Part shown: one piece after another, positions 38,862 to 51,049 of the stretch | Layout: the number at the start of each line of letters is the position of its first letter | How positions within the stretch are numbered: position 1 is the stretch's first letter | Origin: Lachnospiraceae bacterium | Lineage (GTDB): Bacteria; Bacillota; Clostridia; Lachnospirales; Lachnospiraceae | Direction: 5' to 3' | Length of the DNA stretch: 64,000 nt | Assembly (NCBI GenBank): GCA_017450485.1 | Contig: JAFSTN010000019.1 | Location: forward strand, 21,014 to 85,013 | Program-made: the position numbers and the translations under genes | The notes under the pieces: generated by a model | Databases searched by the model: none | What the model was told of the DNA's origin: nothing | The model's input: only the letters and a program-made list of their open reading frames with translations

Positions 38862-40157
38862 TCATTTCTTCAGCTTGCTGTCACGATAGATCACATCGCT
38901 TCTCTTCGGTCCGTTGGAAACCATGGTGATCGGATATCCGATCTGCTCTTCAATGAAGTTTACATAATTCTGTGCTTCGATCGGCAGTTCCTCGAACTTA
39001 TTGATGCCCCTGATATCACATTTCCATCCGGGGAATACCTTAAGTACAGGCTTGGCTTTCTCCAGCAGACTGGTAACGGGGAACTCCGTGGTGACCTCAC
39101 CGTCTATCTCATATCCCACACATACAGGTATCTCATCGAGATATCCGAGCGCATCGAGAACCGACAATGCCACATCGGTACAGCCCTGCAGGCGGCATCC
39201 GTATTTGGAGGCCACGCAGTCATACCATCCCACTCTTCTCGGACGTCCCGTGGTAGCACCGTACTCTCCGCCGTCTCCGCCGTGATCGCGAAGCTCCTGG
39301 GCGGCGTCATCGAATATCTCCGATACAAAAGCACCTGCGCCTACAGCCGATGAATATGCTTTGGATATAACTACTATCTGCTTGATCTCATACGGAGGGA
39401 TACCTGCTCCGATAGCGCCGTATGCTGCCAGCGGTGATGATGATGTGACCATGGGATAGATACCGTGATCGGGATCCTTCATGGTACCGAGCTGACCTTC
39501 GAGCAAAATGGTCTTGCCTTCCTTTATGGCCTTATCCAGATAGAGCGATACATCCCCGATAAAAGGTTTTACACGCTCACGTACCGACTTGATCCAGTTC
39601 AGTATTCCGGCCTGGTCGAGAGGGTCGGTATTGTAGAGGTTCACAAGCAGCGCGTCCTTGATGGCTGCTATGCGGGCGATCTTTTCCTTCAGGACATCAT
39701 CATCCTGATAGAACTCGTTGATCTGCCAGCCGATCTTTGCATATTTATCCGAATAGAAAGGAGCGATACCGGACTTGGTCGATCCGAATGACTTACCTGC
39801 AAGTCTGGCCTCCTCCAGAGTGTCAAAAAGTACATGATACGGCATCATGACCTGCACACGGTCAGATACCATGATCTGCGGCATCGGTACATTCTTGGAC
39901 GTGATATCATCGAGCTCCTTCATGAACTTCTCTATATCAAAAGCCACACCGTTTCCGATGATGTTCATGATCTTCTGATGAAAAACTCCCGACGGCATCG
40001 TATGGAGCGCGAACTTTCCGTAATCGTTAACTATCGTGTGACCTGCGTTGGCGCCACCCTGAAAACGGATAACTATATCCGCATCCTCAGCGAGCATATC
40101 GGTAAACTTACCTTTTCCCTCATCTCCCCAGTTAGCGCCTACTACTGCTTTAACCAT
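38862..40157 (-). CDS. purA: Adenylosuccinate synthase
   Basis: It joins IMP and aspartate with GTP, the first committed step to AMP. The N-terminal NWGDEGKGKFTD P-loop, FQGGANAGHTI, EGQLGTMKD and TTGRPRRVGWYD are the family signatures. The 431 residues are standard. AGGAGG lies 6 nt before the ATG, 20 bp after purB, which catalyses the next step. Confidence 0.97.
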   Translation of the reverse strand: MVKAVVGANWGDEGKGKFTDMLAEDADIVIRFQGGANAGHTIVNDYGKFALHTMPSGVFHQKIMNIIGNGVAFDIEKFMKELDDITSKNVPMPQIMVSDRVQVMMPYHVLFDTLEEARLAGKSFGSTKSGIAPFYSDKYAKIGWQINEFYQDDDVLKEKIARIAAIKDALLVNLYNTDPLDQAGILNWIKSVRERVKPFIGDVSLYLDKAIKEGKTILLEGQLGTMKDPDHGIYPMVTSSSPLAAYGAIGAGIPPYEIKQIVVISKAYSSAVGAGAFVSEIFDDAAQELRDHGGDGGEYGATTGRPRRVGWYDCVASKYGCRLQGCTDVALSVLDALGYLDEIPVCVGYEIDGEVTTEFPVTSLLEKAKPVLKVFPGWKCDIRGINKFEELPIEAQNYVNFIEEQIGYPITMVSNGPKRSDVIYRDSKLKK

Positions 40158-40177
40158 CTCAATCCTCCTATGTATCC

Positions 40178-41629
40178 TCAGACATTGATCTCGGCTGATG
40201 CACCGAGCATACTCTCATGCGAAGCGCGTATCGGATCTACGACCGATGCGATGAATTTGTCTACCTGCAATTCGGATCTGCCCACATATTTAGCAGGATC
40301 CATAGCTGCCTCAAGCGACTCGAGGTCGGTACAGAAAGCTTCATCGGCAGCTATCAGCTCGAGCAGGTTATTCTCAAGTCCAAGCTTCTTGACATTATTT
40401 CCGGCTTCCATAGACAGCTGACGTATACTCTCATGCAGCTCCTGTCTGTTACCGCCGTTCTTGACCGCATCCATCATGATGTTCTCGGTAGCCATGAATG
40501 GAAGCTCACTCATCAGATGCTTGTGAATGACCTTATCATTGACTACCAGCCCGTCTACGACATTCAGGCACAGATCCAGTATACCGTCCGTAGCCAGAAA
40601 TGCTTCCGGAATGGATATCCTCTTATTTGCCGAATCATCCAGCGTACGCTCGAACCACTGTGTGGCCGAGGTGATCGCGGGATTCAGCGCATCTATCATC
40701 ACATATCTGGACAGCGAAGCTATACGCTCGCTCCTCATGGGATTACGCTTATAAGCCATCGCGGATGAACCGATCTGACCTTTTTCAAAAGGTTCTTCAA
40801 CTTCCTTCAAGTGCTGCAGAAGTCTGATGTCATTGCTCATCTTGTGAGCCGATGCCGCAATACCTGCAAGTATATTGCATACTCTGGTGTCGACCTTACG
40901 CGAATATGTCTGTCCCGATACCGGATAGCACTCTTCGAATCCCATCTTGTGCGCTATCATCGGGTCGATCTTATCTATGGTCTCCTGATCTCCGTTGAAG
41001 AGTTCCTGGAAAGATGCCTGTGTACCTGTGGTGCCTTTGGAGCCGAGAAGTTTAAGCGTGCCGAGTACATACTCCAGATCCTCTAAGTCCATAGCGAATT
41101 CCTGAGTCCACAGCGTCGCTCTCTTGCCCACAGTGGTAGGCTGTGCGGGCTGGAAATGCGTGAATGCAAGTGTCGGCAGCGCCTTATACTCATCGGCGAA
41201 CTTACCCAGCTCGTCTATAACACACACCAGTTTGCGGCGTATCAGCTCGAGCGCTTCCCTCATGATGATGATGTCGGTATTGTCCCCGACATAACAGCTG
41301 GTAGCTCCGAGGTGAATGATGCCGGCAGCTTTGGGACACTGCTGTCCGTATGCATATACATGGCTCATAACATCGTGACGTACCACTTTCTCACGTGCTC
41401 GTGCCACATCATAGTTGATGTCATCGGCATGAGCCTTGAGCTCATCTATCATCTCCTGGGTTATGACAGGCTTACCGTCCTGTGACAGCCCCAGTTCCAT
41501 CTCGGTTTCCGCGAGTGCTATCCAAAGCTTTCGCCATGTGGTAAATTTCTTGTCCTGGGAAAAGATATACTGCATTTCCCTGCTGGCATATCTCTCCGAT
41601 AAAGGACTGGTATAAACATCTGTAGGCAT
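40178..41629 (-). CDS. purB: Adenylosuccinate lyase
   Basis: It releases fumarate from adenylosuccinate and SAICAR. The fumarase-superfamily signature GSSAMAYKRNP (catalytic Ser loop) and the HLGATSCYVGDNTD and TGTQASFQELF blocks identify it. GGAG lies 7 nt before the ATG. It is the first gene of the purB-purA-aspS operon, with its own promoter overlapping the end of the preceding gene. Confidence 0.96.
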   Translation of the reverse strand: MPTDVYTSPLSERYASREMQYIFSQDKKFTTWRKLWIALAETEMELGLSQDGKPVITQEMIDELKAHADDINYDVARAREKVVRHDVMSHVYAYGQQCPKAAGIIHLGATSCYVGDNTDIIIMREALELIRRKLVCVIDELGKFADEYKALPTLAFTHFQPAQPTTVGKRATLWTQEFAMDLEDLEYVLGTLKLLGSKGTTGTQASFQELFNGDQETIDKIDPMIAHKMGFEECYPVSGQTYSRKVDTRVCNILAGIAASAHKMSNDIRLLQHLKEVEEPFEKGQIGSSAMAYKRNPMRSERIASLSRYVMIDALNPAITSATQWFERTLDDSANKRISIPEAFLATDGILDLCLNVVDGLVVNDKVIHKHLMSELPFMATENIMMDAVKNGGNRQELHESIRQLSMEAGNNVKKLGLENNLLELIAADEAFCTDLESLEAAMDPAKYVGRSELQVDKFIASVVDPIRASHESMLGASAEINV

Positions 41630-41672: not shown

Positions 41673-41701
41673 ATACTACCAAAGCTCATATCGAGCGTCA
41701 A
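41673..41701 (-). promoter_or_regulatory. Sigma-A promoter of purB-purA-aspS
   Basis: TTGACG (41696-41701) and TAGTAT (41673-41678) lie 17 bp apart on the minus strand, with an extended TG upstream of the -10. The -35 overlaps the last codon of the coiled-coil gene. Predicted leader about 37 nt, too short for a purine riboswitch. Confidence 0.7.
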
Positions 41702-43020
41702 GGAATCTCGAAGCCGCCGAGCGCAGCTCCCGATTCCGAGTTGAACCTCGCTTCATATTCGGCTACAAGCGCCATGATCTCGCCGGAATACTTGGGATAA
41801 GATTCAACCAGATCCTTGATCTCATTCTGTGCGTTACCGGCTACGACCTCACGGTTATACTCCATACGCTTGCGCAGCGACTGTCTGCGGACTATCAGAC
41901 TGTGACGTATCTCGACCATCTCCTTGTGATCCAGGATAGCATCGGTCTGATTTAACCATATCGCGGTATCACCTATCTGGTATCTGCGGAGTATATGCAT
42001 GAGTTCGTTTTCACACAGGTCGAGTGCCATTTGCGACTGACGCATGGCGGCTCTGCGTTCTTTCTCCTCATTGAACTGCTTCCACAGCTTGTTCAGCTCC
42101 TTGGCGGAGTCTACCCTGTACTTCATGCAGAGATAATCGAGCAGGTTCGTATTGTTGACATACCTGATCTTGACACGGTTCTGAAGCATGATCAGTCTGT
42201 TCGTCTCTGCACGCAGCTTCTTATATTCGGAGGAAGCCTCCCTGTATTTATGGAAAACAAACAGATAGAAAATGGCGGCGCCGCCTGCTGCCAGCACGTA
42301 CCCCATAGACGCGTTCATCTTGAAGCCGAACTGCAGGACAATGAGGGCCAGCATACATACCGCTACCGCTACGGTACACACCACGGTCATCCCCTGGCAG
42401 TCCTCCATCTCGCCTATCAGTTCGCCTCTTCTGTATCTGAACGCACCCCTCTCATTATCCAGGCGACGCAGATCGGCCTTTATCTTCTGCTGATATTCTT
42501 CGGCTTCGTTCAGCTTGCGGATACCGTCTTCCACATCCGAATCAAGCATCATCAGCTGAGCATACTTTGCATCCGACATACCCTTTTTGAGTGCCTGGGC
42601 ATCCTCTTTGGCACGCTCTCTGCGGATCGAGGATACCTTCGCAGCCGCAGTCTCAAGTGCTGCCTTTTCCTCGACGGGCAGATTCTCGATCTCCTCCATA
42701 TCCTTCAGATATGAGGTGACCATGTTGTACTCGTACTCCAGATTCTCAAGCTCTCTGGTCGCTTCGGCTATCTGCTCGAGACAGCTGATCACATAGTCAT
42801 GTCTCTGCTTGTGGTCATGGATATCTATATGCTCGCGGGTGTAGATGACCTGTTCCCAGTCTCGTCCGCCGATGCCGGTCGCATCCGAAGGATCGCCGTC
42901 CCCGTAGTCTTCCTTCTCATCAATACTGCTGTCGGCATCCCATTCATTCCAGTCATCTAAGTCATCCCAGTCATCGGAAAAGCTTGATATTCTTTTTTTG
43001 AAGTTATTCCATAGACCCAT
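41698..43020 (-). CDS. Coiled-coil protein with a central membrane pair; fourth gene of the DUF5717 operon
   Basis: 440 residues from ATG 43020, which has GGAG about 5 nt upstream and leaves a 10-bp gap to the previous gene; the longer frame to 43086 overlaps that gene. An acidic Asp/Trp-rich N-terminus (DDWDDLDDWNEWD) is followed by long coiled coil (about 80-220), two close hydrophobic helices (about 230-275; MTVVCTVAVAVCMLALIVL and the next) and more coiled coil. No catalytic motif. It may anchor the operon's products to the membrane. Not recognised as a named family. Confidence 0.7.
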   Translation of the reverse strand: MGLWNNFKKRISSFSDDWDDLDDWNEWDADSSIDEKEDYGDGDPSDATGIGGRDWEQVIYTREHIDIHDHKQRHDYVISCLEQIAEATRELENLEYEYNMVTSYLKDMEEIENLPVEEKAALETAAAKVSSIRRERAKEDAQALKKGMSDAKYAQLMMLDSDVEDGIRKLNEAEEYQQKIKADLRRLDNERGAFRYRRGELIGEMEDCQGMTVVCTVAVAVCMLALIVLQFGFKMNASMGYVLAAGGAAIFYLFVFHKYREASSEYKKLRAETNRLIMLQNRVKIRYVNNTNLLDYLCMKYRVDSAKELNKLWKQFNEEKERRAAMRQSQMALDLCENELMHILRRYQIGDTAIWLNQTDAILDHKEMVEIRHSLIVRRQSLRKRMEYNREVVAGNAQNEIKDLVESYPKYSGEIMALVAEYEARFNSESGAALGGFEIP

Positions 43021-43030
43021 AAAACTCCGA

Positions 43031-43879
43031 TCAGCCCGAAACCATCTCACGATACGAACTCTTGAGCTCATCCAGGAGCTTATCAAGCTGTTCGTAGTAC
43101 GGTGTGGTCTGTTCGCCGTAGCTGGTAGATTCTTCGCGAAGCATCTTCATGGTCATGATCGAGCGGTATTCGTCGGTTCCCACAAAAGCTCCCTCGGCCT
43201 GGCTTATGCTTTTCTCCACCCTGTGGGACATCTCATAGAATTCGGGATGGCCCGCTATATAATCCAGATATTCCTTATCATCCTTGGACATCCTGAGTGC
43301 GGTCAGGAACTGTTTGAGACTGTCATCCTCAGGCAGAGTCTTATATGCGCAGTAATATGCTTTGGCCGCCTCCGCGAATCTGAACATTCTGGTATATGCA
43401 TATCCGCAGTTGTGCCAGATCGAAGCACGAACCTTTTTTTCATTCTCGGGTATGGACTCGAGCAGCTCGTTATATGCGGACAGAGCCATGGTCACACGTC
43501 CGCACATCAGATAGTAATCCGCACGGGCTTTACCTTTCTCATAAGTTGACAGAGAAGCGTTGTCGCGTATCACGGCACAGGTCTGGTCTATGTCCTCCGC
43601 ATCGTAGAATCCCACATACTCCATGATGATACGTGCATACATATCCACGCTGCTCTCGCGTCTGACCGCATCCGTGAGCTCTGAGCACAGATCCTCCAGA
43701 CCGCACTCTTCACCCAGCCATTTAGCCAGTTCTTCACACGCAAAGCTCTCATCGAGGAGATAGGCATCCAGCATGATACAATAGCAAAGCTCCTCCGGAG
43801 AATAAACCCGGATCATCATCTTCTCGATCAAATATGGATTATCGGTCCTGTGTCCACAGGCTAATCTGACCTTATCCAT
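43031..43879 (-). CDS. Helical-repeat (TPR-like) protein of the DUF5717 operon
   Basis: 282 residues, all-helical, with TPR-like pairs around ADYYLMCGRVTMALSAYNELL and NCGYAYTRMFRFAEAAKAYYCAYKTLPEDD (about 125-190). No signal peptide. It starts with MDKVRLACGHRTDNPYLI, where the C-x-H may be coincidental. It begins 4 bp after the DUF5716 gene, so it is translated from the same message. A TPR scaffold would suit assembly with a chaperone-like partner; the role is inferred from context only. Confidence 0.72.
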   Translation of the reverse strand: MDKVRLACGHRTDNPYLIEKMMIRVYSPEELCYCIMLDAYLLDESFACEELAKWLGEECGLEDLCSELTDAVRRESSVDMYARIIMEYVGFYDAEDIDQTCAVIRDNASLSTYEKGKARADYYLMCGRVTMALSAYNELLESIPENEKKVRASIWHNCGYAYTRMFRFAEAAKAYYCAYKTLPEDDSLKQFLTALRMSKDDKEYLDYIAGHPEFYEMSHRVEKSISQAEGAFVGTDEYRSIMTMKMLREESTSYGEQTTPYYEQLDKLLDELKSSYREMVSG

Positions 43880-43883
43880 GTAC

Positions 43884-45146
43884 TCACACTTCTATCGTAA
43901 AGTCCCACTCTTTCTGACTCGAGGGGAATAACTCGCCGAATCCGATGTCCTCGATATGCATATGCACAGTGGAAACATCACTCATTGACATCACAAGTTT
44001 CATACGCAATGTATCGGGATCACGCTCAGGGAGGTCATACAGCTCTATATCCCTGACATCATGCTCTCCTCCGTCGAGGGGTATGATCTCCAGACTAAGC
44101 ACCCCGTCCTCGGGAACGAAAAGCTCATACTCACATTTCACGTCGTACCAGTTGATACCCGCATCGAGCAGTGCCAGGTATGATCTGCGTCCGCGTCTGA
44201 GCACGTTCATGCCGATATTGCAGCGGAGCTTGTCCACGCCCAGATATACGTGCGACTTCGCATTCTCATCAGGCTCATACTTGTCTCTCAGGCTGTAGCA
44301 GGCTCCTCTGCTGAAGAGATCGTTGCCCACGAACAGACGTCTGTTGTGCGCGAGCAAACCTACGGACTTCGTATACCACTGCTCCTTAAATCCGTCACCG
44401 AGCAGATATATACTGGAGAAAAACTCTTCGCCCAGAGCATCCCGCATATGATCCGAGAACTGCTTATCCAGCCTGTCATATGCCGCGGGGCGCGCGTCCT
44501 CGCTCACTATCTGCGGCATAGGCATCCTGTAGGGATCGGATGTATCCACAAAAGCTACTACAGGCTTCGTCCTGGGATTGCGGCTGAATACATAATCGGT
44601 CACATCCGTCCCGTCATAATATGTGCACATCACATTATCACGCCAGAGCTCACGATCCTGATGGATCATATAGTGATATATGCTCTCGGCATAACTCTGG
44701 AAATACACATTGCAGTTAGACAGCTGCAGGCCCTCGGACACACGGCCCATAACATCCACCACCTCAGTGTCCAGCCTTTCACAGGTGAACATGATGTCCG
44801 TGATGGAACCGCTCACTCTGGAACCGCCGAGGATAGACAGGCTGCGCTTGATAAAGAGGGTCAGTAAAGCTATGCCCTCTATCTCTTCGCCGTCAACATT
44901 TTCACGTTCGCCGCGTATCGCTTTCTGCAGAAGGCCGTCCACCAGGAATCCCTCTCCGCGTTCGTGCTGTCTGAGAGCTTCGCGGCCATAGAACCACTGA
45001 TTGACCCCGCGCCTTTTGCACAGGACCATCGGAATGTTGAACACCTGAGATCCTATTATCTGCTCTGCCGTGGCAGGTTCATCCATGCCCGAGCGATAAT
45101 AGCTGATCTGCACCGTATACCTGCCGAGATCAAATCCCACTACCAT
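43884..45146 (-). CDS. DUF5716 family protein, putative degenerate Hsp70/actin-fold ATPase
   Basis: 420 residues. The N-terminus MVVGFDLGRYTVQISYY has the look of the phosphate-1 loop of the actin/Hsp70 fold (DLG-x-x-x-T). RRGVNQWFYGREALRQ resembles the Hsp70 G-x-x-A stretch, and the segment GLQLSNCNVYFQSYAESIYHYM parallels the Hsp70 region ending NEPTAAALAYG. The C-terminus (LRMKLVMSMSDVSTVHMHIEDIGFGELFPSS) is beta-rich, like a small substrate-binding sandwich. The phosphate-2 loop (CTYYDGTDVTDYVF) is degenerate. I recognise the family as DUF5716; the ATPase-fold assignment is my inference. ATG 45146 has AAAGG 9 nt upstream and lies 4 bp after the DUF5717 stop. Confidence 0.8.
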   Translation of the reverse strand: MVVGFDLGRYTVQISYYRSGMDEPATAEQIIGSQVFNIPMVLCKRRGVNQWFYGREALRQHERGEGFLVDGLLQKAIRGERENVDGEEIEGIALLTLFIKRSLSILGGSRVSGSITDIMFTCERLDTEVVDVMGRVSEGLQLSNCNVYFQSYAESIYHYMIHQDRELWRDNVMCTYYDGTDVTDYVFSRNPRTKPVVAFVDTSDPYRMPMPQIVSEDARPAAYDRLDKQFSDHMRDALGEEFFSSIYLLGDGFKEQWYTKSVGLLAHNRRLFVGNDLFSRGACYSLRDKYEPDENAKSHVYLGVDKLRCNIGMNVLRRGRRSYLALLDAGINWYDVKCEYELFVPEDGVLSLEIIPLDGGEHDVRDIELYDLPERDPDTLRMKLVMSMSDVSTVHMHIEDIGFGELFPSSQKEWDFTIEV

Positions 45147-45150
45147 AAGC

Positions 45151-48100
45151 CTAACCTTTATGCATTCCAAACAGTCTGCCGGACATATACTCCTGGCGGT
45201 AATACTCTTCCATGAGAGCATCCACCGTGGAATAATCCCTGAGCGCCCTGCCTATGCACATATCATCTATGAGACCGAACCTGCCCTTTGCGACCGAATC
45301 ACCCATATCATTCCTGATGAGGGTGTTGGACTCGGACAGTTTCTCTCTCTCGTTATCGGATCCCTCGGTGATGTAATACATGATCTTCTCACCGAAAAAG
45401 ATCGTGAACACCTTTGAATAAACGCCCTTATACACTTCATTCATCGGCTCGGCGTTATAGTCATCGTCCTCGCTCTCCACGATATAGTGTATATCCACAC
45501 GTGTACCGGGAGCGGTACGATACTCAACTATGACACTGTCCGCAAATCTGGACATGGAAGGCATGAAGTCTGCCAGCTCCTTGAAACAGGAGATGACGAC
45601 ATCGTCTGCCAGCAGTCTGTGCAGGACATCCCGCAGGATCGGGCGTGTACGCTCATCTATGCGGGTCATATCCTCCGACATATATCTGGCATAAGCCAGA
45701 TCGCATATCTTGCCGAGCCCGAGTTCACTCTCATAAGCATCGGTCATTACGTCAAAGGTCTGATCGGATATAACGGCTCCCTCCACGAAGTTCTCGTAGG
45801 ATGCGGATGCGAGCGCGGCGCGCAGCACATCCTTATCGGGCTCATGATATGCGTAGTCACGCAAGATCTCTGCTTTTTCTTTGACATAAGCACCGGTATA
45901 GAGAATCTGGATCAGGATCTTCTCTTCTATGCCACGGCGGTCAGCCTGCAGTTCGCCGGCTCGGAACCATGTGTCGCGCAACATCCTGAGAGTACCGTTT
46001 ATATGCTCACATTCATACTGCACCGCAGGAAGTGTCACGCGTCCCGAATCCAGACACGAGAAAACCAGCTGTGTGAGCAGTTTCTCATACTCACCGGGTT
46101 CATCGCGGTGTATCGGCAGCCATCCGTATATCAGATCGCTCAAGACGACCTTGTCCACACCTTCGGGACCGTATCTGTATATCCAGTCTATAGCTTTGTC
46201 ATATAGGTTTCTTTTGACCAGCATGCGGATGCACTCCGCTCTCTCATACTCGGCCACATCCTCACTCCTGAGTTTATCCAGAAATGAATCCAGCTCTTCG
46301 GTCTTATCCTGATCATAATAGAATCTGGCCAGCTTCATGGTGACGTTACGCGCATACTCGGGCGAGAATCTCTGCTTCTCCAAGAGATGTCTGAACCGGA
46401 ACTCGTTCTCGGGCTTCATATCGGCGATCGTACGATGCTCGATACAGCTATGGGTATCTATGCCTATATGATCCTTTACATTGAGCTGGAGTGACAGAAG
46501 TATGCGTCCGGGCGGCATCAGCATAGCCGGTTCCATGGATATGGTGGCAACAGAGCGATTGCCGTATGCATCTTCTGCGGCGATGCAGTGGTCATCACTG
46601 TAGATCGGCAGATACGCATGTCCGCCCGTCACGGGATAGCTTTCCTCGCCGTCACGGTGGTCATAGCACAGTATCACATTCCTGATATCGGGATACCCGG
46701 TCAGATCCACTTCATGTATGAAATATATGTCGGCGACCTTCGAGGCCGTCTCGGGGTCATCGAGCATGCTGTTATCTATGACGTCGCGATATAGCACCGA
46801 CAGATACCGGTTATTGCGGCCGGCGCTGAGCTGATCGGACACGAACTCCGTGATCTGTCTCAGATACTTCGAATACATATCGGGATCACGGTCACGGTTG
46901 TTCACGATATAGGCATACAGATATGCATTGGTCTCATAGTCGAGATCCGACTGGAACGAGAAATACATCAGCACGATACGCGGTATCTCGGACTGTGTGT
47001 TCATATCGATGCTGTACATATAGTACTCGTAGAGTCTGGTGATCTTCAGCTCCTGCATGACAGCATAACCGTACCATCTGTGTGCCGCGTGATCTCTGCA
47101 GTTCCCGCGTATGAGCTGTGTACATATGATCGTGAGCAGCTCATCATTGGGATAATCCTGATAGCAGAAAGCAAGCAGACGGATGAGCGACGGTGAATAC
47201 TCTTTGATATGCTCCGCTATGGTCCGGATGATCATGGCCAGCTCATTATTCATCAGGCCTTTTTTGCACATATACCTGATGACCTGCATATCGAAGCCCT
47301 CAAGCTTGGATATGATGGTCGGATTATCCTGAACTATGCGCGCAGCCTCGAGAAAGATAGCCGGTGATTTACATCCGCGCTTATACGCTTCCTCATACAT
47401 CTCCCATCTGTGCAGGCCATTGCGGTAATCATCGCTCATGACGGACAGCAGCCAGCACAGTCTCCAGTTATCGGGATCGGTCTTATAGCAATACTCCACC
47501 TCTTCGGTCAGGGTATCGATATCCATATCACCCTCTTCGATAAGCGAATTCAGATACAGGTAATAGCACCAGAGATATGAATTCTCACTGCGGACCGCCT
47601 GTGCCTGCTCCTTCACTTTCCGCAGGTTCCATAAGGCTTCGTTGCTGTGGCCCCTCGTGATCATCAGATGAACCTGATACAGTCTCGCGCGCAGATCCTC
47701 GGTATCCCTGGTGAGCATCTCCCTGACTATCGACTCGCTCTCATCAAGCCATGTACGGGTGGATATCTTCTTCAGCCTGTGAGACTCGTAGTATTCCATC
47801 AGCGATACCACGCCTCTCATCCGGTCATGTACCATATCCATCAGGTGCTTGCGTTCTCCGGTCACCTTGACCGTAACCGGTATGACCTGTTCCTCTCTGT
47901 CGGAGATCAGATGTATGGCGCCGAAATTACGTCCAACATGCAGACCCGACGGATCTATGTAGTAATACATCTGATATCTGTTACCCAGGAAGGAATCGTA
48001 AGTGACTTCACTGTCCTCTACGGAAAGGAAATCGCCTTCGGCTTCGATCCTGAATCCGGCATATCCCCATCCGTTCCTCACGATATCCATGCTGTATCTG

Positions 48101-48726
48101 CTGGGTTCGTCGGGATCGTTTATCTCTATGCTCTTTTCCGCGGGGATGAACTCTATCGGTGTCTTCTTACGCAGCGAGATGAGGAACTCATCCATGTTGC
48201 GCTCGGATCCCTTCACGCCGGAGAGGCATCTGTACAACGACAGGTACTCACGATCGGATCCTGTGAAAAGATTGATAAAGTGCGGATCATAGAACATCTG
48301 CACCGCTTCCGGCCATTTAGACCTGGCCAGGTTGGTGAAATGAAAAAGATTACGTATCGGTCCTACGGAAGAATCCAGGGCATCGGCATCGGCATGTATG
48401 CAGAAAGGGATCTGATACTCACCGCGATTTGTCACCAGGATAAAGTTACCTCTTACCTCCTGTCCGGGGATCATGTCGCCGGTACGGAACCGGTAGGCTA
48501 TCTCATCCTGCACTCCCGAGAATTCGGTAGTGATACACTCCATCCGGTAATCATCGGAGTAAACGTATCCCTCGGTCAGGTGATGCTCTGCGGCCGTAAC
48601 ACTAAAAGAGCCCTCGCATACCGCGCCGGGCAAAACAGTGTGTTCTATACTCATGACAGAGAATCCGAGTGTGCCGAAATCCCTGTCTATCTGACCATTA
48701 TTTATGTCCTCGATAAATCTTCTCAT
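45151..48726 (-). CDS. DUF5717 family large protein
   Basis: 1191 residues from ATG 48726. An N-terminal beta-rich domain (about 1-130), a middle alpha-solenoid with irregular TPR-like helices (about 300-1000; LYQVHLMITRGHSNEALWNLRKV, AECIRMLVKRNLYDKAIDWIYRYG) and a C-terminal beta domain (VDIHYIVESEDDD to FFGEKIMYYITEG). No signal peptide or membrane helix. I recognise it as DUF5717, found beside DUF5716 in Clostridia; function unknown. The frame extends to 48801 but crosses the htpG terminator. A consensus extended -10 ends 10 nt before the ATG and no Shine-Dalgarno is visible, so it is probably leaderless. First gene of a four-gene operon. Confidence 0.85.
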   Translation of the reverse strand: MRRFIEDINNGQIDRDFGTLGFSVMSIEHTVLPGAVCEGSFSVTAAEHHLTEGYVYSDDYRMECITTEFSGVQDEIAYRFRTGDMIPGQEVRGNFILVTNRGEYQIPFCIHADADALDSSVGPIRNLFHFTNLARSKWPEAVQMFYDPHFINLFTGSDREYLSLYRCLSGVKGSERNMDEFLISLRKKTPIEFIPAEKSIEINDPDEPSRYSMDIVRNGWGYAGFRIEAEGDFLSVEDSEVTYDSFLGNRYQMYYYIDPSGLHVGRNFGAIHLISDREEQVIPVTVKVTGERKHLMDMVHDRMRGVVSLMEYYESHRLKKISTRTWLDESESIVREMLTRDTEDLRARLYQVHLMITRGHSNEALWNLRKVKEQAQAVRSENSYLWCYYLYLNSLIEEGDMDIDTLTEEVEYCYKTDPDNWRLCWLLSVMSDDYRNGLHRWEMYEEAYKRGCKSPAIFLEAARIVQDNPTIISKLEGFDMQVIRYMCKKGLMNNELAMIIRTIAEHIKEYSPSLIRLLAFCYQDYPNDELLTIICTQLIRGNCRDHAAHRWYGYAVMQELKITRLYEYYMYSIDMNTQSEIPRIVLMYFSFQSDLDYETNAYLYAYIVNNRDRDPDMYSKYLRQITEFVSDQLSAGRNNRYLSVLYRDVIDNSMLDDPETASKVADIYFIHEVDLTGYPDIRNVILCYDHRDGEESYPVTGGHAYLPIYSDDHCIAAEDAYGNRSVATISMEPAMLMPPGRILLSLQLNVKDHIGIDTHSCIEHRTIADMKPENEFRFRHLLEKQRFSPEYARNVTMKLARFYYDQDKTEELDSFLDKLRSEDVAEYERAECIRMLVKRNLYDKAIDWIYRYGPEGVDKVVLSDLIYGWLPIHRDEPGEYEKLLTQLVFSCLDSGRVTLPAVQYECEHINGTLRMLRDTWFRAGELQADRRGIEEKILIQILYTGAYVKEKAEILRDYAYHEPDKDVLRAALASASYENFVEGAVISDQTFDVMTDAYESELGLGKICDLAYARYMSEDMTRIDERTRPILRDVLHRLLADDVVISCFKELADFMPSMSRFADSVIVEYRTAPGTRVDIHYIVESEDDDYNAEPMNEVYKGVYSKVFTIFFGEKIMYYITEGSDNEREKLSESNTLIRNDMGDSVAKGRFGLIDDMCIGRALRDYSTVDALMEEYYRQEYMSGRLFGMHKG

Positions 48727-48736
48727 AGTTATTGAA

Positions 48737-48765
48737 ATTATACCAAATCTCAGCTGTATAAACAA
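48737..48765 (-). promoter_or_regulatory. Extended -10 promoter of the DUF5717 operon
   Basis: TATAAT at 48737-48742 with a TG one base upstream, and TTGTTT at 48760-48765 after a 17-bp spacer. The weak -35 overlaps the T-tract of the htpG terminator. The start site is predicted 3-4 nt before the ATG at 48726. Confidence 0.7.
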
Positions 48766-48821
48766 GAAAAAGCCCCTGCGATTTCCGTGTTTTCGGGACA
48801 CCCACGGATAGTCGCAGAGGC
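48761..48821 (-). terminator. Rho-independent terminator of htpG
   Basis: Arms 48772-48789 and 48803-48821 form a long stem interrupted by small mismatches around TTT/TAG. On the minus strand it is followed by TTTTTCTTGTTT. It begins 13 bp after the htpG stop codon. Confidence 0.8.
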
Positions 48822-51022: not shown

Positions 51023-51049
51023 TTAGCACTCACAGGCGGTGAGTGCTAC
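51023..51049. promoter_or_regulatory. CIRCE element (HrcA operator) upstream of htpG
   Basis: TTAGCACTC (51023-51031), a 9-bp spacer, then GAGTGCTAC (51041-51049). This matches the consensus TTAGCACTC-N9-GAGTGCTAA at 17 of 18 positions. A TATAAA -10 candidate on the minus strand (51057-51062) would place the transcript start at the edge of the element, about 105 nt before htpG, the usual CIRCE geometry. Confidence 0.92.

Follow-up and report, generated by a model that had tools for sequence, protein, structure and literature searches.

The window analyzed here, a 64,000-nucleotide stretch of contig JAFSTN010000019.1 from a Lachnospiraceae bacterium (assembly GCA_017450485.1), carries four adjacent minus-strand genes that an initial annotation had described as a chaperone-like operon built around an Hsp70-like nucleotide switch. 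Open reading frame (ORF) calls bear out the four genes and the gaps of 4, 4 and 10 bp between them. The product of the second gene, DUF5716, is by its predicted structure a degenerate Hsp70 that is probably catalytically inert, and the first three genes form a conserved core that appears to be what remains of a larger operon with several intact Hsp70s. The ORF calls are as follows:

45151-48726, minus strand: DUF5717 gene, 1191 residues
43884-45146, minus strand: DUF5716 gene, 420 residues, predicted degenerate Hsp70 without a lid
43031-43879, minus strand: TPR-like gene, 282 residues
41698-43020, minus strand: coiled-coil gene, 440 residues, an optional member of the unit

The DUF5717 protein matches the Pfam models DUF5717_N (9e-271) and DUF5717 (2e-81) with near-full-length coverage. 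The match of the DUF5716 protein to DUF5716_C (5.5e-89) covers only about the C-terminal 70%, the Pfam model spanning the C-terminal part and omitting the Hsp70-like N terminus. Both proteins lie over the curated cut-offs (PF18984, PF18983, PF18980) and are clear members of families to which Pfam assigns no function. The TPR-like protein has a weak TPR_2 match (4e-5), and the Pfam scan of the coiled-coil protein gave only three matches, all far under cut-off.

In its predicted model, DUF5716 has an actin-like nucleotide-binding domain (NBD), with the fold kept but most of subdomain IIB missing, followed by a domain resembling the β-subdomain of the Hsp70 substrate-binding domain (SBD-β; residues ~309–420). 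The α-helical lid is missing, the chain terminating with the SBD-β-like strands. Judged by this model, DUF5716 is a member of the Hsp70 fold superfamily, and the Hsp70-like organization originally claimed for it stands, with no sign of an unrelated fold. Active-site residues were checked in an alignment on the genome's own DnaK, using 73 distinct family rows (26 + 47), some of them from near relatives or from one genome under two labels. Asp8 is kept in 68 rows, the switch proline in 8 and Thr11 in 2; Lys70, the catalytic Glu and the phosphate-2 GGGT are kept in none, the Glu being replaced by His (51 rows), Tyr (21) or Phe (1). Subdomain IIB, which in Hsp70s provides the adenine contacts (the adenine clamp) and GrpE docking, is reduced to 23–29 residues opposite DnaK 195–289. 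DUF5716-like proteins of the sister families (16 rows) have 76–80 residues in this stretch and keep Lys70 in 0 rows, the Glu in 1, Thr11 in 5 and GGGT in 0. With the ATPase residues gone and most of the IIB lobe missing, the proposed nucleotide switch is not supported, and the sequences indicate that DUF5716 is probably catalytically inert. Its first loop, earlier given as DLG-x-x-x-T, has the spacing DLG-x-x-T (DLGRYT). In a 26-row alignment, six of the 13 invariant columns (Gly330, Arg375, Asp400, Gly402, Phe403 and Gly404) fall in the SBD-β-like domain. DUF5716 also carries a conserved DxGFGExFPSS motif. An HSP70 profile search of the genome, which is 91% complete, found one DnaK-like locus; the other matches were a 337-residue ORF, probably MreB, and a weak match in a 733-residue ORF.

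The AlphaFold2 model of DUF5717 (predicted local distance difference test score 85.2, predicted template modeling score 0.55) comprises two predicted N-terminal Ig-like β-sandwiches of the PapD/ASH type (residues 27–119 and 192–288), two long predicted α-solenoids (residues 294–668 and 741–1061) and further predicted β-sandwiches after each solenoid (residues 670–719 and 1064–1137). The comparison with structures in the PDB tests only residues 16–291 well. These predictions agree with the solenoid scaffold suggested in the initial annotation. The coiled-coil protein has two hydrophobic segments, at ~211–229 and ~238–256. The ciliary central-pair structure 7n6g was matched twice, as Hsp70A for the DUF5716-like protein and as the top β-sandwich for DUF5717, which is probably a coincidence.

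Of 250 Lachnospiraceae genomes that are at least 90% complete, 248 contain DUF5717_N, 247 DUF5716_C and 247 the TPR gene. All four genes are missing from two genomes (G270 and G323), and a third (G329) has DUF5717 without DUF5716 and TPR. The coiled-coil membrane gene was found in 101 genomes, a lower bound because the search profile was built from near relatives; the membrane tether proposed for the system is thus only partly supported. Linkage was examined in the best 80 of 374 related loci, a sample that leans to near relatives and whose titles are mostly Lachnospiraceae or its genera, with a few Bacillota, Clostridium, Clostridiales and uncultured bacterium and one metagenome-assembled genome labeled Muribaculum. 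DUF5716 is followed by TPR and coiled-coil genes in all 80 (79 by ORF call; in L188 the TPR gene is masked by an antisense ORF and was recovered by tblastn), and DUF5717 lies upstream of DUF5716 in 78, the other two beginning at a contig edge. In 20 more diverse family loci, DUF5717, DUF5716 and TPR are adjacent in every case and the coiled coil was detected in eight. The predicted linkage across relatives therefore holds for these three genes, which form the conserved core because their linkage is constant in both sets and htpG, PrsA and the coiled coil are variable. Across a phylum-level sample, DUF5716_C occurs in 4 of 249 genomes, all four of them Lachnospiraceae.

The initial annotation did not see that this core is related to a multi-Hsp70 operon in sister families. 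An order-level sample of 147 genomes contains DUF5717_N in 68 (19 Lachnospiraceae and 49 outside), DUF5716_C in 66 and both in 65; outside Lachnospiraceae the DUF5716_C profile also matches one of the intact Hsp70s, Hsp70-B. Loci were read for 20 of the 49 outside genomes. The usual order is DUF5717-N, DUF5717-C, Hsp70-A, GrpE-like, DUF5716-like, Hsp70-B, Hsp70-vWA, TPR, with the two DUF5717 halves sometimes fused and small or inserted ORFs between some genes. Hsp70-A follows the DUF5717 genes in 18 of the 20 loci (17 as ORFs, and G531 by tblastn), which span seven family labels, and under three further labels Hsp70-A and DUF5717 share a contig, a few kb apart (G497, f112; G506, f121; G511, f126). 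A coiled coil is present in six of the 20, and two loci end before that position. The three intact Hsp70s (A, B and the vWA fusion) are lidless, and the DUF5716-like protein is a degenerate Hsp70. In one locus (L085), Pfam HSP70 matches A at 3e-75, B at 7e-61, the vWA fusion at 8e-95 and the DUF5716-like protein at 5e-20, and none of these reaches an NCBIfam DnaK cut-off. Six of seven GrpE-like members have a GrpE Pfam match. With a presence threshold of E up to 1e-100, Hsp70-A occurs in 48 of the 49 outside genomes bearing DUF5717 (the miss is G504) and also in G538; it occurs in none of 10 order genomes without DUF5717, none of 150 Lachnospiraceae genomes and none of 236 genomes of a class-level sample. 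The vWA domain takes the lid position of its Hsp70 (L085, 12267-14342; L074, 12517-14676). Two genomes labeled f112 (G620 and G594; L078 and L089) have the DUF5717 halves apart from the Hsp70 genes, beside a gene that by eye is PAS-GGDEF-like, and the multi-Hsp70 operon contains insertions that by eye are lipoprotein-like paralogs in G550 (L088, L207) and two metallo-β-lactamase-like genes in G520 (L084).

The direction of change was read from trees and flanking genes. One tree combines DnaK with 17 proteins from each intact Hsp70 group, 16 DUF5716-like proteins and 26 of the 73 DUF5716 rows of the family. It places the family DUF5716 within the DUF5716-like group, nearest to that of G496 (ultrafast bootstrap 100), and the combined clade as sister to Hsp70-B (ultrafast bootstrap 100). 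A FastTree tree of the DUF5717 C terminus, rooted at the midpoint and built on 14 of the 33 family rows and 20 from outside, gives the same nearest relatives. The G496 operon (L072, L205) is itself intermediate, with its GrpE-like protein cut to 279 residues and its vWA-Hsp70 and TPR frames each in two ORFs. A divergent aminotransferase sits close to the operon in 11 of 20 loci outside the family and 12 of 100 within it, all 12 belonging to the 20 diverse loci (10 adjacent, L093 one gene off and L109 at ~4 kb), and ValS is found downstream in five of the 20 outside loci and three of the 100 in-family loci. Within the 100 in-family loci, tblastn detected neither a GrpE-like nor an Hsp70-A nor an Hsp70-vWA sequence, and its Hsp70-B matches were weak and lay at the position of DUF5716; absence was checked genome-wide for Hsp70-A and at locus level for the other genes. 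From the shared flanks and the DUF5716 and DUF5717 trees, the simplest account is that Hsp70-A, Hsp70-B, Hsp70-vWA and the GrpE-like gene were lost in place in Lachnospiraceae. Descent of the family core from the larger operon is well supported.

Pairwise evolutionary distances correlate strongly among the operon proteins. Against an HtpG background in 16 thinned loci, partial r is 0.71–0.88 within the operon and 0.51–0.64 with PrsA, the fast-evolving neighbor used as control in this test. With a PurB background the values within the operon are 0.74–0.97, in a run without a fast-evolving control. The correlations mildly favor a complex.

Four features upstream of the genes, two of them read from the sequence as candidate promoter elements, concern expression of the operon and its separation from htpG:

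48737-48742, minus strand: TATAAT, perfect -10 hexamer with TGG just before it
48760-48765, minus strand: TTGTTT, weak -35 element, 17 nt upstream of TATAAT
48760-48821, minus strand: hairpin and T run 3' of htpG (RNA fold -28.4 kcal/mol, z -4.33)
51023-51049, minus strand: CIRCE element of htpG, one mismatch against the consensus

A single promoter, as previously proposed, is plausible from the TATAAT with its TGG and the poor TTGTTT, a pair that is not in the output of a consensus promoter scan of the window. The ATG of DUF5717 lies 10 nt past TATAAT (48727-48742) with no Shine-Dalgarno word. This spacing recurs in five of 74 related loci (L113–L117), and a leaderless mRNA is likely for the operon in the window's subgroup. 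A Shine-Dalgarno-like word lies close to the start in 34 of these 74 loci, and a -10-like hexamer lies 30–38 nt upstream of the start in 30, counts based on hand-picked words that may include chance matches. The hairpin, which a simple terminator scan does not report, is likely a terminator separating htpG from the operon. The operon does follow htpG directly by position, as the initial annotation had it, but the hairpin and T run lie between htpG and the promoter; htpG is a neighbor with its own likely terminator, outside the unit. Nor is the htpG/PrsA neighborhood a general trait, with htpG in only 36 and PrsA in only 21 of the 80 related loci, many of which end at contig edges. The CIRCE element noted ahead of htpG is real and is the only one found in a scan of the window; because none precedes the DUF5717 operon, there is no sign of HrcA heat-shock control. 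Downstream of the operon are purB and purA (window 38862-41629), purB being present in 63 of the 80 related loci; by eye, in L120 and L098 it follows an amino-acid ABC transporter, purC and purF.

The explanation toward which we lean, with modest confidence, is that the trio forms an ATP-independent pseudo-Hsp70/scaffold complex, a remnant of a multi-Hsp70 machine. The fold, active-site loss, linkage, distribution and descent that it builds on are shown by computation; from these we infer a physical complex, client binding, a location and cooperation with DnaK. The ancestral machine would have had three intact lidless Hsp70s, a GrpE-like protein, a degenerate DUF5716-like protein, DUF5717, TPR and sometimes a coiled coil in one operon. 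On the way to Lachnospiraceae this operon would have lost its intact Hsp70s in place, together with the GrpE-like protein; the DUF5717 halves would have merged into a single chain, and DUF5716 would have shed most of its IIB lobe. DUF5716 would then be a fixed, ATP-free, Hsp70-shaped adapter on a DUF5717/TPR scaffold, binding a partner or client via its SBD-β-like end. In genomes that have the coiled-coil hairpin protein, the complex would be held on the cytoplasmic side of the membrane. Most likely the complex would act without ATP, as a co-chaperone or a scaffold for assembly, and pass clients to DnaK and perhaps HtpG; DUF5716 may serve DnaK as Ssz1 serves Ssb (PMC8476630). Several points weigh against this explanation. 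When the clade of the window is left out, the remaining 12 loci give partial correlations, on the HtpG background, of 0.63–0.91 within the operon and 0.49–0.68 with PrsA, ranges that overlap. A J domain is absent from the Pfam matches of the window and sister operon proteins scanned, the Pfam HSP70 model does not match the window DUF5716 protein, and the DUF5716 profile alone matched no Hsp70 among PDB sequences. The parallel with Ssz1 is one of structure and decay only, Ssz1 still being ATP-binding, and DUF5716 may retain some nucleotide binding because Asp8 and the overall cleft are kept.

That same Asp8, with the DLG-like loop and the NBD fold kept in the model, speaks for an active nucleotide-switch Hsp70 with dedicated scaffolds, in which DUF5716 would cycle between ATP and ADP by an altered site; the loss of Lys70, the catalytic Glu and GGGT from all 73 rows, the deletion of most of IIB and the absence of intact Hsp70-A from all 150 family genomes sampled make it improbable. 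An unlikely but less distant possibility is that the Hsp70 fold serves only as an actin-like unit in a membrane-associated scaffold of the envelope or of cell shape, without a chaperone role. Such a platform would suit the coiled-coil hairpin protein, the Ig-like domains, the solenoids and the lack of a CIRCE element before the operon, but 149 of the 250 genomes gave no match to the membrane protein, and the SBD-β-like domain is kept with its six invariant columns. Least probable of all is a conflict or defense system of the GAP1-N2 type (Hsp70, GrpE and FNIII-TPR; Kaur et al., 2020) of which only the scaffold is left. The kinds of parts in that class (PMC7159879) resemble those of the out-of-family operon, but near-universality of the trio (247–248 of 250 genomes) is not expected of such a system, PADLOC gave no match for the window proteins, and no GTPase was found in the sister operon proteins scanned or in 10 neighbor proteins from six loci, the only places searched.

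Lachnospiraceae include many gut bacteria, and the trio is near-universal in those sampled. The pseudo-Hsp70/scaffold explanation would make them a natural case of a multi-Hsp70 machine without its intact ATPases but with the degenerate one kept, and the scaffold role of pseudo-Hsp70s is therefore testable in bacteria; the comparison also brings to light an unstudied four-Hsp70 operon in the sister families. In searches of an open-access library, no listed title or abstract described the trio, subscription journals lying outside the search. DUF5716 shares with DnaK the NBD and SBD-β fold, the motif order and alignable IPTVL..QWxYGxEA and xDxGxG stretches, but lacks the catalytic residues, most of IIB, the lid and a match to the HSP70 model. 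The closest published system found is the Hsp70/GrpE theme of the GAP1-N2 systems (PMC7159879), which combine an Hsp70, GrpE, an extra Hsp70 without the peptide-binding domain and FNIII-TPR fusions; the sister operon differs in its Hsp70-vWA fusion and in having no GTPase match in the proteins scanned. Ssz1 of the ribosome-associated complex is an Hsp70 that lacks SBD-α and an efficient ATPase cycle and retains ATP binding (PMC8476630). In structure comparison Ssz1 is among the top rows for DUF5716, tied with DnaK. The two share an Hsp70 fold without a lid, and hydrolysis is predicted to be lost in DUF5716; Ssz1 binds ATP and pairs with the J-protein Zuo1, whereas DUF5716 is without key site residues. 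More tentatively still, we suggest that an undescribed, order-specific machine, encoded in one operon and comprising an Ig-like/solenoid scaffold, a GrpE-like factor and four lidless Hsp70 paralogs (one of them degenerate, another fused to vWA), was stripped in Lachnospiraceae to its scaffold and dead Hsp70, leaving a near-universal ATP-independent proteostasis complex that would match in kind, among bacteria, the ribosome-associated complex built on Ssz1.

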